A DNA stretch of 64,000 nucleotides from contig NZ_SHKR01000014.1 of NCBI RefSeq assembly GCF_004217145.1, positions 496,001 to 560,000 of the forward strand. The letters are read 5' to 3'. The position numbers were made by a program, and so were the translations under genes. The first letter of the stretch is position 1; every line of letters starts with the position of its first letter. Source of the stretch: Kribbella rubisoli (GTDB taxonomy: Bacteria > Actinomycetota > Actinomycetes > Propionibacteriales > Kribbellaceae). Shown here piece by piece: positions 43,033 through 48,197 of this stretch. Below the pieces are notes generated by a model. The model saw nothing but the letters and a program-made list of their open reading frames with translations, did no database searches and had not been told where the DNA came from.

Positions 43033-44571
43033 GTGATCACTGCGCCTGACCTGATTGCCGCCGTCGGCCCCGCCCTCTTCGAGATGGTGGTGACCGGCAA
43101 GGGCGACAGCGAGGTCCGTGACGTGTTCCTGGCTGACCCGCAGGAGGCTGCGACAGGTCAGCCAGGTGATCTGGTGCTCGGACTCGGTCTGCGCGACGCA
43201 GAGGACGCTGTGGAGCTCGTAGAGCGCTGTGCGGCCAGCAGCGCGTCCGGCGTCGTTCTGCGTACGGCGCTCGCCCACGAGCCGACCGTGCTCACCGCAG
43301 CGGAAAAGACCAGGCTCACCCTTGTCGCGCTGCAGCCGAGCGTCACGTGGGCGCATGTGGTGTGGCTGATGCGTGGCGTCATCGACCGCGCCGCCGCGCC
43401 GGACTCCCCTGCCGCCGGAGACGCCGGAGTACACCAGGAGCTGTTCGCACTGGCAGATGCGGCCGCAGCGATCGTCGATGCGCCAGTGACCATCGAGGAC
43501 AACCAGTCGCGGGTACTGGCGTACTCCTCTGGTCAGGACTTCACCGACCCGACCCGTGTGTCCACCATCGTCGGTCGTCGGGTGCCGGCCGAGGTGATTG
43601 CGCATTTCCGGGCCCGTGGAATCTTCCGGCGGCTGGCGCGGTCCAGCGAGCCGTTCCTGGTGCCGGACGGTCCGAATGGCATCCGCCCGCGTCTCGTCGT
43701 ACCGGTCCGGGCTGGTGGTGAGTGGCTGGGGTCTATCTGGGCTGTTGTCGACGGTCCGGTGAGTGATGCGGTCACTGCGGAGCTCAGCAACGCCGCATCC
43801 GTGTTGGCGTTGCACCTGTTGCGGTTGCGCGCTCAGGCCGACGTGGCGCGGCGGAGTGCGATCGATCGGCTGCGGACGATCCTGCGGCAGTTCTCACCGG
43901 ACAGTCCGGTCGACGTACGGCTCCCGCGGCAGCCGTGGCGGGTGGTGGCGCTCGGCTCGCCGGACGGGTACGACGTACCGCAGCAGCTGGACCTGTGGGA
44001 GTCGACCGGGCGTCGGCACGGGTGGAGCGAGCCGCAGCTGGCTGATCTGGACGGGACGGTGCTGGCCGTTGTCACGGACACGGACGGGCCAGGGTCGTGG
44101 AACTGGTTGCAGAAGCTCGTGCAGGAGCAGGCGCCGGGCACGTACGCGGCTGCCGGTGGTCCGGCGCGCGGTCCTGCCGATCTGCCGAGCTCACGGGCCG
44201 AGGCGGTCGAGTTGCTCGGTCTCGTACGGCGGGGTGTCGCGCCCGGGCCGGCGTTGCGGGTCGAAGAGGCGTGGCACGTGCTGACTGTTCACCGAGCGGT
44301 GACGTCGCTTGATACCACCAAGCTGGATGGTCCGCTCGCGACGTTGCTGCGGCACGACATCGACCATGACACGGGATACGTGGAAACGTTACAGGCGTGG
44401 CTTGATTATCCGGGGCAGCCGCAGCGGGCGGCGCGGGAGTTGCACCTGCATACGAACACGTTGCGGCATCGGATGAAGCGGATCGGGGAAATCGCGGAGC
44501 TGGATCTCTCGGATCCGCGCGAGCGGCTGGCGTTGCAGCTGCAGATCGCCGCCGTACGCACCGAGCACTGA
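43033..44571 (+). CDS. PucR family transcriptional regulator
   Basis: 512-residue regulator. The N-terminal PucR-type domain is followed by a GAF-like middle (about residues 140-270; QELFALADAAAAIVDAP, LVVPVRAGGEWLGSIW). The C-terminal helix-turn-helix has YPGQPQRAARELHLHTNTL then RHRMKRIGEI. Such regulators activate catabolic genes in response to purine, amino acid or other metabolites. It is divergent from dadA and probably controls it. The start is a GTG without a clear ribosome site. At its 3' side lies a run of four hairpins. Confidence 0.88.
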   Translation: MITAPDLIAAVGPALFEMVVTGKGDSEVRDVFLADPQEAATGQPGDLVLGLGLRDAEDAVELVERCAASSASGVVLRTALAHEPTVLTAAEKTRLTLVALQPSVTWAHVVWLMRGVIDRAAAPDSPAAGDAGVHQELFALADAAAAIVDAPVTIEDNQSRVLAYSSGQDFTDPTRVSTIVGRRVPAEVIAHFRARGIFRRLARSSEPFLVPDGPNGIRPRLVVPVRAGGEWLGSIWAVVDGPVSDAVTAELSNAASVLALHLLRLRAQADVARRSAIDRLRTILRQFSPDSPVDVRLPRQPWRVVALGSPDGYDVPQQLDLWESTGRRHGWSEPQLADLDGTVLAVVTDTDGPGSWNWLQKLVQEQAPGTYAAAGGPARGPADLPSSRAEAVELLGLVRRGVAPGPALRVEEAWHVLTVHRAVTSLDTTKLDGPLATLLRHDIDHDTGYVETLQAWLDYPGQPQRAARELHLHTNTLRHRMKRIGEIAELDLSDPRERLALQLQIAAVRTEH

Positions 44572-44641
44572 GCCGACACTGAGATGTACGCCACAGGCCC
44601 GTGTAACAAGGCTTCATATTCCGGCAACTGTTGGGCAACAT

Positions 44642-44778
44642 CCGGCTGACAGAGTCTTCCTTGTCAGCCGGTCCGGCCTTTCACCAGGAGGCCGGAACGG
44701 CTCGGGTCCGAGCTTTTCACCAGGAAGCTCGGGCCGTACGCAGGCCCGGCGATTGTCTGAGCGATCGCCGGGCCTGCG
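44642..44778 (+). ncRNA. candidate structured RNA: three hairpins and a terminator, two with identical loops
   Basis: Four consecutive hairpins. HP1: 10-base stem (44642-44651 and 44662-44671). HP2: 8-base stem (44672-44679 and 44689-44696) with loop TTCACCAGG. HP3: 11-base stem with one G-U pair (44705-44715 and 44725-44735), again with loop TTCACCAGG. HP4: perfect 15-base terminator stem (44739-44753 and 44764-44778) followed by GTATTTCT. HP2 and HP3 have different stem sequences but the same 9-base loop at the same place, as expected of a selected RNA element. It may be an independent small RNA or the 3' end of the PucR-gene mRNA. I know of no matching family. Confidence 0.5.
44739..44778 (+). 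terminator. terminator downstream of the PucR gene / hairpin array
   Basis: Perfect 15-base stem with a 10-base loop, then GTATTTCTCC. It lies 167 bases after the PucR stop codon and 20 bases before the end of the convergent flavoprotein gene. Confidence 0.85.
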
Positions 44779-44797
44779 GTATTTCTCCTACCGTTGC

Positions 44798-45814
44798 CTA
44801 GGACAACCGGTTGACGATGGTGCGGTAGACGCCGGGGAGTGCGGCGGCGGCCGGGACGATGCGTGGGGCGAGCAGCGGGCGGCTGCGGGCCCAGAGCAAC
44901 GATGCGGTCAGCAGGCGGCACTCCCAGGAGACGCGACGCCAGGCTGCTTCGTAGTCCTGCGGGCGGTTGGCGCGGATGCAGTCGACAAGCTCTGCGGAGG
45001 TGCGCAGGGCGACGGCGATGCCTTCACCGGTCAGCGCGTCGACGTACCCGGCGGCGTCACCTACCAGCAGGACATGGCCGGCCGTGCGCGCGTGCACACG
45101 CTGGCGGAGCGGACCGGCGCCCATCACCGCACTCGCCGCCTCGGCTCCCCGCAGGCGGCGCTCGAGCGCGGGAAAGGCGTCGAGATGCGAGTCGAAGGTG
45201 CCACGCGCGGAAGTGAGGATCGCGACGCCGACCAGGTCGTCGGCGACCGGCGTCACGTAGGCCTCACCGAGACGAGACCAGTAGACCTCGACAAGATCAG
45301 TCCAGGGAGCCACGGCGAAGTGCTGCCGAAGCCCACGACGTACCTCATCAGACTTTCCATCAGAGAGATCTAGTTGGCGGCGGATTGGGGAGTGGAGGCC
45401 GTCGGCGGCGGCTAGGTAGTGGGCGGTGTGGTTGGCGGCGGTTACCGAGGTGGTGTTTTGGGTGATGGGGCCGACTCGGTCGTGGATGACGGGGACGTTC
45501 AGTTCGGCTAGTCGCTTCAGGAGGGCTGACTGGAGGGTGGTGCGGCGTACTCCGAGACCGGGTCCGGCGGTGAAGCGGGCGTCTACCTGGTGGGTGGCGT
45601 CTACGTAGCGGATTCCGTGGAACGGGCGGCCGGAAAGTTCCACGCCCAGGCGGGTCAGGTATTCGACGGCGCTGTGGGCGATCCCCTCGCCGCACGCTTT
45701 GTCGATAGGGCCGGAGCGCGGCTCGACAACGACTACCGACAGGCCGGCCAGGGCAGCCCGGATCGCAGTAGCCGCCCCGGCCGGACCCGCGCCCGCAACG
45801 AGTAGGTCGATCAC
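44798..45814 (-). CDS. FAD-dependent geranylgeranyl reductase/hydroxylase family protein (SrsC-like position)
   Basis: 338-residue flavoprotein of the geranylgeranyl-reductase/PHBH-like group. The FAD motif GAGPAGAATA lies at residues 8-17. CGEGIAHSA follows at about 42-50, and GDAAGYVDALTGEGIAVAL is the second FAD motif. In Streptomyces griseus srsC encodes the FAD hydroxylase of the phenolic lipid operon srsABC (established); here the order PKS - methyltransferase - flavoprotein is the same, but whether it hydroxylates a ring or reduces double bonds is open. Its GTG shares GTGA with the stop of the upstream methyltransferase gene. Confidence 0.82.
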   Translation of the reverse strand: MIDLLVAGAGPAGAATAIRAALAGLSVVVVEPRSGPIDKACGEGIAHSAVEYLTRLGVELSGRPFHGIRYVDATHQVDARFTAGPGLGVRRTTLQSALLKRLAELNVPVIHDRVGPITQNTTSVTAANHTAHYLAAADGLHSPIRRQLDLSDGKSDEVRRGLRQHFAVAPWTDLVEVYWSRLGEAYVTPVADDLVGVAILTSARGTFDSHLDAFPALERRLRGAEAASAVMGAGPLRQRVHARTAGHVLLVGDAAGYVDALTGEGIAVALRTSAELVDCIRANRPQDYEAAWRRVSWECRLLTASLLWARSRPLLAPRIVPAAAALPGVYRTIVNRLS

Positions 45815-46323
45815 TTGACCAGCGCGGAGTTGAGTGCGGTCTCCTCGGTGCGAATGCGGACGGCGAGCAGCGGGATGTTCAACACAGTGAAGACCAGTGC
45901 TGTGATCCACGCGGTGTGGACCAGCGGCAGCGCGATCCCCTCCGCGACCACCGCCACATAGTTGGGATGCCGGATCCACCGATACGGGCCGCCGGCAACC
46001 AACCGCAGCCCCGGTACGACGATCACGCGCGTGTTCCACTGGTGTCCGAGGACCGAGATGCACCACCACCGCAACCCCTGCGCGAGCACCACCACGACCA
46101 GCATCGTCCACCCCAGCCACGGGATGAACGGCCGGTGCAACGCCTCCACCATGCACGCGGCCAGCAGTCCGGTGTGCAGCACCACCATGAACGGATAGTG
46201 CCCGCGCCCGGACTCCACCCCGCCCCGAGCGAAGCTCCACTTCGCGTTCCGCAGCGACACCACGAGCTCGGCCACGCGCTCGCACGCAACCAGGATCACC
46301 AGGCCCAGATACCAGCCGTACAT
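45811..46323 (-). CDS. isoprenylcysteine carboxyl methyltransferase-like membrane methyltransferase (SrsB-like position)
   Basis: 170-residue membrane protein with four hydrophobic segments and the ICMT/phospholipid methyltransferase signature GGPYRWIRHPNYVAV near residues 110-124, where SAM is bound. In srsABC the equivalent gene methylates an alkylresorcinol. The start is uncertain by two codons; the ATG overlapping the PKS stop as TGATG is preferred to two in-frame GTG codons just before it. It is coupled on both sides. Confidence 0.85.
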   Translation of the reverse strand: MYGWYLGLVILVACERVAELVVSLRNAKWSFARGGVESGRGHYPFMVVLHTGLLAACMVEALHRPFIPWLGWTMLVVVVLAQGLRWWCISVLGHQWNTRVIVVPGLRLVAGGPYRWIRHPNYVAVVAEGIALPLVHTAWITALVFTVLNIPLLAVRIRTEETALNSALVK

Positions 46324-47375
46324 CACCACTCCATCAGCACGAGCTCGGAACAGAAACCAGGTCCCATCGCCAGCAGCACGCCCGGACCCTCAGGAGAAGG
46401 ATCCAGCTTGAGCGTGTCACCGAGCACGTGCAGCACCGAGGACGACGACAAGTTGCCGACCGCATCCAGCGAGGTCCAGGTCAGATCCAGCGCTCCCGGT
46501 CGCAGCTCCAGCGTCTCGGACACCGCATCCAGCACCTTCGGTCCACCCGGGTGACTCACCCACGTACCGATCTCCGGCACGGTCAGCCCGTGATCCTCGA
46601 GGAACCCCCGGACGTCACCGCCCAGATACTTGCGCACCACCTCAGGCACGTCCGCCCCGAGCACGATCCGGAATCCGCCCGACCCGATGTCCCACCCCAT
46701 CACCCGCTCCGAGTCCGGGTACAGCCGCGACCGCGTCGCCACCACCGAAGGCCCGGACGCGAGCGGATGCTCCGACCCCGTCAGTACCACCGCAGCCGCG
46801 CCGTCCCCGAACAACGCTCCACCCACCAGGTTCGGCAACGAGGCGTCGTCCCGCTGCAATGTCAACGAGCACAGCTCCACCGACAGCAGTACGGCGACCT
46901 GCGTCGGCCAGGCCGTCAGGTAATCGTGCAGCCGCGCAATCCCCGCTGCTCCCCCGACGCACCCGAGCCCGAACAACGGCAGCCGCTTCACGTCCTCCCG
47001 CAGCCCGAGCCGCATCGCCACCCGCGCATCGATCGACGGAGCCGCCACCCCGGTGACCGTCGTGAACATCAGTACGTCGACGTCGTCCAGCGCCAGCCCC
47101 GCGTCCTTCACCGCCCCCGCGACCGCCTCCGCGCCGAGCTCGACAGCCGTCGCGATCCACTCGTCGTTCGCCTCACCGAAGTCCTTCAAAGCGGCGTACC
47201 GCTCCAGCGGCAACGCGAGATGCCGATAGGACACCCCCGCATTCGCGTGCAGCCGTCGCAGCAGCGCAGAACTCCGGCCGTCCGGCAGACAGATCGAGGC
47301 GAACGCCTCCGTCAGCGAAGACTGCGGATAGCGGTACGGCGGGAGCGCGGGCCGGACCGCTGCGATCCGCGTCAT
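46323..47375 (-). CDS. type III polyketide synthase (SrsA/alkylresorcinol synthase-like)
   Basis: 350-residue chalcone-synthase-fold enzyme that extends an acyl starter with malonyl units without a carrier protein. The catalytic triad is Cys139 in GLGCVGGAAG, His275 in VSHPGGPK and Asn308 in AVGNLSSSS. The following methyltransferase and flavoprotein genes suggest a long-chain phenolic lipid (alkylresorcinol or alkylpyrone) product, as for srsA. The ATG lies only 18 bases from the start of the divergent prenyltransferase gene. Confidence 0.9.
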   Translation of the reverse strand: MTRIAAVRPALPPYRYPQSSLTEAFASICLPDGRSSALLRRLHANAGVSYRHLALPLERYAALKDFGEANDEWIATAVELGAEAVAGAVKDAGLALDDVDVLMFTTVTGVAAPSIDARVAMRLGLREDVKRLPLFGLGCVGGAAGIARLHDYLTAWPTQVAVLLSVELCSLTLQRDDASLPNLVGGALFGDGAAAVVLTGSEHPLASGPSVVATRSRLYPDSERVMGWDIGSGGFRIVLGADVPEVVRKYLGGDVRGFLEDHGLTVPEIGTWVSHPGGPKVLDAVSETLELRPGALDLTWTSLDAVGNLSSSSVLHVLGDTLKLDPSPEGPGVLLAMGPGFCSELVLMEW

Positions 47376-47393
47376 CGTGGCATCGTTACGTCG

Positions 47394-48197
47394 GTGAAGA
47401 CCGTCAAAGGTCTGGCTCTTGCCTGCCACCCCGGGCCCACTGTCGCCGTGACCGCTCTGGTCACGGCTGTCGCCTGGTCGGCCGGGCGAAGTCCGGCCGG
47501 GTGTCTCCTCGTCGCAGCAACGATCCTCACCGGCCACCTCTCGATCGGCTGGAGCAATGACGCGATTGATGCCGCCCGCGACACCATTGTGAACCGCCGG
47601 GACAAGCCCGTGGTGCGCGGACTGGTGAGTCGCCGGACGCTCGCGATCGGCGCCGGCATCATGTTGGTCGTCACGATTCCGGTCTCCCTTGCCAACGGAC
47701 TGGCGGCCGGCCTGGTTCATCTGCTCTTCGTCGCCTGCGCCTGGGCGTACAACCTGGGCCTCAAGTCGACCGTGATCTCCTGGCTCCCGTATGCCGTCGC
47801 GTTCGGCGCGCTGCCCTCGTTCGTGACGCTCGGTACCGCACAGGTCTGGGCGCCGTGGTGGGCCACCGCCGCGGGCGCTCTTCTGGGGATCGGTGCCCAT
47901 TTGGCAAACGTCGTACCCGATCTGGCCGACGACCTCGCGACCGGCGTACGGGGGTGGCCACAGCGGCTCGGGTCCTACGCCCGCCTGCTCGCTCCGCTCC
48001 CGCTCGCACTCGCGACCGGGCTCTTGGTGATCGCGCCCGCCGGGGCGATCGGCATCGTCGGCTGGATCGCGCTCGTCGTCGTCGCGGCACTGCTCGTCAC
48101 GATCCTGCTCTGGCGCAACGCGCCGTTCCTGGTCACGATCGCCATCGCCGCGGTCAGCATCATCACGCTGGTGTTGCGCGGTGACGCACTGATCTAG
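47394..48197 (+). CDS. UbiA family prenyltransferase
   Basis: 267-residue polytopic protein with eight or so membrane segments. The first Asp-rich motif (SNDAIDAARD, with RDKP after it) and the second (VVPDLADDLATG) should bind Mg-prenyl diphosphate. The N-terminal ACHPGPTVAVTAL is typical of the UbiA/EboC-like group. It would attach a prenyl chain to an aromatic acceptor; the neighbouring phenolic-lipid genes offer such an acceptor (inference). GTG start; the 3' end overlaps the convergent LysR gene by 35 bases. Confidence 0.86.
   Translation: MKTVKGLALACHPGPTVAVTALVTAVAWSAGRSPAGCLLVAATILTGHLSIGWSNDAIDAARDTIVNRRDKPVVRGLVSRRTLAIGAGIMLVVTIPVSLANGLAAGLVHLLFVACAWAYNLGLKSTVISWLPYAVAFGALPSFVTLGTAQVWAPWWATAAGALLGIGAHLANVVPDLADDLATGVRGWPQRLGSYARLLAPLPLALATGLLVIAPAGAIGIVGWIALVVVAALLVTILLWRNAPFLVTIAIAAVSIITLVLRGDALI

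Follow-up and report, generated by a model that had tools for sequence, protein, structure and literature searches.

Why should a short gene-free stretch between two convergent genes present the same nine-base loop twice, each time on a different stem? The question arises in the window studied here, a stretch of 64,000 nucleotides from the 8.6 Mb genome of a member of the genus Kribbella (G000). The gap between 44571 and 44798 contains no gene among the window's open reading frames, as the first-pass annotation had stated for 44572-44797. We compared this locus across the genus, and the reading that fits best is a new small RNA, specific to the genus, that would act via its repeated loop. The relevant features are as follows, in window coordinates:

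43033-44571, plus strand: PucR-type regulator, the upstream neighbour (PF13556; PF07905 slightly under the cut-off)
44603-44647, plus strand: conserved upstream block GTAACAAGGCTTCA-ATTCCGGCAAC-GGGCAACATCCG, putative promoter or activator DNA
44642-44671, plus strand: hairpin 1 (HP1), a strong fold here that is not conserved across the genus in per-species folds
44657-44788, plus strand: predicted transcript of about 120-130 nt, start uncertain, running from after the HP1/-10-like region to the terminator
44672-44696, plus strand: hairpin 2 (HP2), 8-bp stem, loop TTCACCAGG at 44680-44688
44705-44735, plus strand: hairpin 3 (HP3), 11-bp stem, loop TTCACCAGG at 44716-44724
44739-44788, plus strand: intrinsic-terminator-like hairpin, 15-18 bp, short T-rich tail, 99% of cells paired genus-wide
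44798-45814, minus strand: FAD-dependent reductase of the geranylgeranyl-reductase type, the convergent downstream neighbour (PF01494)

The array lies directly 3' of the PucR stop codon and is flanked by the PucR gene and the FAD reductase in all of the 37 genomes in which it could be placed, 4 of which have extra sequence between array and reductase. A type III polyketide synthase (46323-47483, minus strand) adjoins the FAD reductase, and the same gene group (44798-48197) includes an ORF on the opposite strand for a membrane protein, called UbiA-like by eye from its translation.

Folding recovered the four hairpins described by the first-pass annotation at their positions, including the 15-bp terminator stem and its short U run. 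The 229 intergenic bases fold at -120.7 kcal/mol, against a mean of -84.5 for dinucleotide shuffles (n=200; z -7.0), and 0/200 shuffles matched this fold. The terminator stem (44739-44753/44764-44778) is a perfect 15 bp followed by the tail GTATTTCTCC. HP2 and HP3 do carry one and the same nine-base loop. Their stems had been called unrelated, which is true of the outer stems; the inner stem bases are similar, and the 17-nt stretch around the loop that includes them shows 88% identity between the two hairpins. The loop word together with both closing bases, TTTCACCAGGA, occurs 3 times in the whole genome, and 2 of these occurrences are in this array.

The comparison with other Kribbella genomes provides the main evidence that the loop itself is under selection. 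In a count that tolerated two loop substitutions, the loop was exactly TTCACCAGG in 88/88 hairpins of 37 genomes, on 26 distinct 7-bp stems. Most genomes have two looped hairpins (21) or three (15), and a single one has only one. Across the 88 hairpins the loop is closed by U-A, C-G or G-C, and one pair further down A-U occurs as well. In our alignment (A1), 96.6% of cells are paired, and this fraction drops to 27-49% when the partners are slid by 1-3 columns. In 19 of the 32 base pairs both partners change and pairing is maintained, against 1-4 in the slid controls; this holds for 7/8 pairs of HP2 and 8/11 pairs of HP3, and the loop is invariant in both. The idea of the first-pass annotation that selection acts on an RNA loop whose stem pairing is maintained is thus strongly supported by these comparisons, and we propose that the stems are mere holders and the loop the contact site. 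The UU and GG of the loop could form two U-G pairs, and RNAfold draws them so, which would leave a loop of 5 nt instead of 9. Since these positions were never seen as U-A or C-G, we read them as sequence that is recognised rather than as stem. Two genomes depart from the general pattern. G010 (G010:C1:597115-597232) has about 12 extra bases within the first conserved loop (TTCA...ACCAGG), and its second hairpin is intact. In G031, the most divergent genome, the upstream block is mostly lost or decayed and two hairpins containing TTCACCAGG are retained.

HP1, which the first-pass annotation had counted as part of the array, does not share this history: its fold has z -4.3 to -6.7 in near relatives only and z about 0 in most other Kribbella. 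Because it is not conserved and sits where the -10/start region is expected, we left it out of the conserved RNA; HP1 is outside the conserved array and probably overlaps the -10/start region or the promoter. The upstream block spans about 45 bases, shows higher conservation than the stems and occurs in a single copy in its own genome. Its element GTAACAAGGCTTCA is exact in 36/37 genomes and has 1 mismatch in the remaining one. The block is probably promoter or activator DNA; a search for a sigma-70 consensus upstream of the array found none. Read on the plus strand, the stems have G-U pairs and A-C mismatches in a ratio of 60:18. This excess, with the terminator that closes the array on the plus strand, favours transcription of that strand. 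The predicted transcript could reach about 200 nt in species with three looped hairpins.

The array is widespread within the genus. BLAST detected the intergenic DNA in 37 of 38 Kribbella genomes, and R1, a covariance model based on 31 copies, matched 38/38, with a single match in each except for one doubled. This check on homologous loci, suggested by the first-pass annotation, found both the loop and the pairing conserved. With the covariance model, under stricter filters than those used within the genus, none of 353 genomes from elsewhere in the order carried the array, and the one PucR orthologue examined in the sister family lacks such an array. The exact two-loop pattern gave 71 matches among 84,980 prokaryote genomes, and only those in Kribbella had stems at both paired loops. 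One record named 'Streptomyces sp. SID13031' (NZ_JAAGLV010000008.1) carries the RNA and is evidently a Kribbella. No array was found in phages and plasmids, and the pattern matches in viral contigs never had paired stems beyond 3 bp on both copies. A dispersed repeat or mobile element was rejected because the array is single-copy and syntenic. In summary, the array is best read as specific to Kribbella.

How might such an RNA act? We suggest that a small RNA of about 120-200 nt would be transcribed from the plus strand, starting at a promoter of its own that lies downstream of PucR and ending at the intrinsic terminator. Rigid GC-rich stems would each present one copy of the nine-base loop UUCACCAGG, two or three copies per RNA. 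These loops would most likely pair with only a few mRNAs that bear CCUGGUGAA-like sites and block their translation or stability, and the loop repeats would offer several binding sites or redundancy. The UCACC of the loop could pair with the GGUGA of Shine-Dalgarno-like sites. That the loops of this Kribbella RNA pair with a few mRNAs is a reading to which we give about even credence.

The search for targets gave little to favour this pairing. Genome-wide, there are 179 occurrences of the loop complement CCUGGUGAA. Among the 93 exact CCTGGTGAA sites that we examined, almost all of which are coding, 73 are within genes and on the same strand, as expected from the codon bias (CTG-GTG-AA codons). 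At 1,162 called gene starts (1.2 Mb, or 14% of the genome of one species), the complement was not enriched relative to shuffled words. Only GGTGAA and TGGTGA, which resemble the Shine-Dalgarno sequence, show a weak enrichment in start regions, and they are equally over-represented inside genes. A handful of targets may lie beyond these 1,162 starts. The best candidate at a gene start was an acyl-CoA ligase gene, in which a complementary site spans the GTG start and is intact in 29 of 37 species. The site is lost in five species, whose RNA loops are unchanged, and has one mismatch in three more. We rejected the ligase as a target, given the five species that lose the site and keep the loops, and because a conserved leader mini-ORF overlapping the start accounts for the conservation of the site. 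The mRNA partner envisaged by the first-pass annotation therefore has no support so far.

This mini-ORF (L298-L317, L332-L348) is found in 37 Kribbella genomes and lies on the minus strand at about 1489936-1490042 of C1 in G000. It has about 11-17 codons, mostly 15, and overlaps the GTG start of the ligase in another frame. It begins with A/GTG, typically encodes M/V-T/A-D-S-P-G-E..., and the DNA that it shares with the ligase start is nearly invariant. It lacks a Shine-Dalgarno site, and its arrangement suggests that this upstream ORF is leaderless, or else a +1 frameshift. Another candidate was a gene resembling phytanoyl-CoA dioxygenases (G000:C4:783812, on the minus strand), in which 15 nt some 22 codons past the start are perfectly complementary to HP2 (UCCUGGUGAAAGGCC). 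We set it aside because the complement is coding and the stem bases involved vary between species.

The same small RNA might instead use its repeated loop to capture an RNA-binding protein, as a sponge like CsrB/RsmZ or the ANTAR-binding EutX, the main alternative, which we consider doubtful on balance. It would explain why identical loops recur on interchangeable stems in copy numbers of 2 to 3, why all nine bases of the loop are invariant, and why complementary sites are not enriched at gene starts. However, the best-known partner of such sponges, CsrA, is absent from the genome, the base after the GG varies so that the GGA core is not kept, and none of the 92 other copies of TTCACCAGG that we examined (about half of the copies) is on a stem of more than 4 bp, which means that among these copies there are no mRNAs with the same hairpin. 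A broader version, in which a multivalent Kribbella-specific RNA has its UUCACCAGG loops recognised by an RNA-binding protein, so that actinobacteria would have their own equivalent of Csr, seems to us unlikely. Between pairing with mRNAs and capture of a protein we give a slight preference to pairing, since sRNAs built along these lines, sX13 among them, act in that way.

The remaining explanations dispense with an RNA that acts through its loops. The convergent genes, the terminator hairpin and the location right after the PucR stop codon would fit a structured 3' end whose loops have no function, be it terminators between convergent genes or a PucR 3' UTR. Yet a terminator needs no identical nine-base loop in every one of the 88 hairpins on changing stems, there are no T-runs behind the two looped hairpins, the upstream block is conserved along its length, and the PucR orthologue of the sister family does without the array. 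We thus consider this explanation very improbable. Still less credible, and close to discarded in our view, is a DNA element, either a set of protein-binding repeats or a mobile or recombination hairpin read from single-stranded DNA. Such an element could account for repeats with a common sequence and for an upstream block that resembles protein-binding DNA, but it fits poorly with a single syntenic copy in each genome and no dispersed ones, with its absence from phages, plasmids and, as paired stems beyond 3 bp on both copies, viral contigs, with compensatory changes in the stems, and with the excess of G-U over A-C.

Under the preferred reading of a small RNA acting through its loops, the fixation of nine bases amid exchanged stems indicates a single defined partner, and finding it would bring to light either a regulon or an RNA-binding protein that is new. 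To our knowledge, few actinobacterial small RNAs have been described outside Streptomyces, Mycobacterium and Corynebacterium, actinobacteria largely lack the usual RNA chaperones, and global sponges of the Csr kind are hardly known in the phylum. In our literature search we met no small RNA described from this locus in Kribbella, nor the loop word in any paper on bacterial sRNAs. The small RNA looks previously undescribed, and the array is a new candidate Rfam family.

We compared the array with the known RNAs that it most resembles. No Rfam family reaches its gathering threshold at the array. The sole match at that level in the window is a Guanidine-III riboswitch (RF01763, 18546-18611, minus strand, 53 bits). 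The sX13 RNA of Xanthomonas is Hfq-independent and its loops act on mRNA sites near starts (PMC3771888). The array resembles it in its series of GC-rich hairpins, whose apical loops repeat a motif, and in its terminator, but the loops of sX13 are CCCC/CCCCC instead of UUCACCAGG, and the phylum and the locus are different. Membership in the family (RF02232) was rejected: the score was 25.5 bits against a gathering score of 50 bits, and eight copies from other Kribbella did not match the model. The 6C RNA of actinobacteria, of about 100 nt, also has two hairpins with one shared loop motif (PMC4046766), but its loops consist of about six or more consecutive C. Its model (RF01066) has no match in the window or the genome, in a weak search where the control genome gave only a match below the cut-off.

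The resemblance to the CsrB/RsmY/RsmZ sponges lies in the several hairpins, the single loop motif and the changeable stems. CsrB/RsmZ carry GGA in each loop, whereas the GG of the Kribbella loop is fixed but followed by A, G or C. A CsrA sponge is rejected because CsrA (PF02599) was not found in G000, whereas the control genomes were positive. ANTAR targets also consist of two adjacent hairpins with related loops and a short linker, but their loops are hexanucleotides with A1 and G4 (PMC8164766), a register that is missing from the longer Kribbella loop (or from its 5-nt form). Ms1, a 6S-like RNA reported for Kribbella by synteny (PMC9130861), is likewise an actinobacterial sRNA. It is recognised by synteny with a HAD hydrolase and an oxidoreductase, in contrast to the PucR and FAD reductase genes that flank the array in every placed genome. 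The array belongs to none of the described families tested and would work like a multi-loop sRNA, with the general features of trans-acting RNAs of that kind: independent hairpins, one loop motif, a terminator and an intergenic position.
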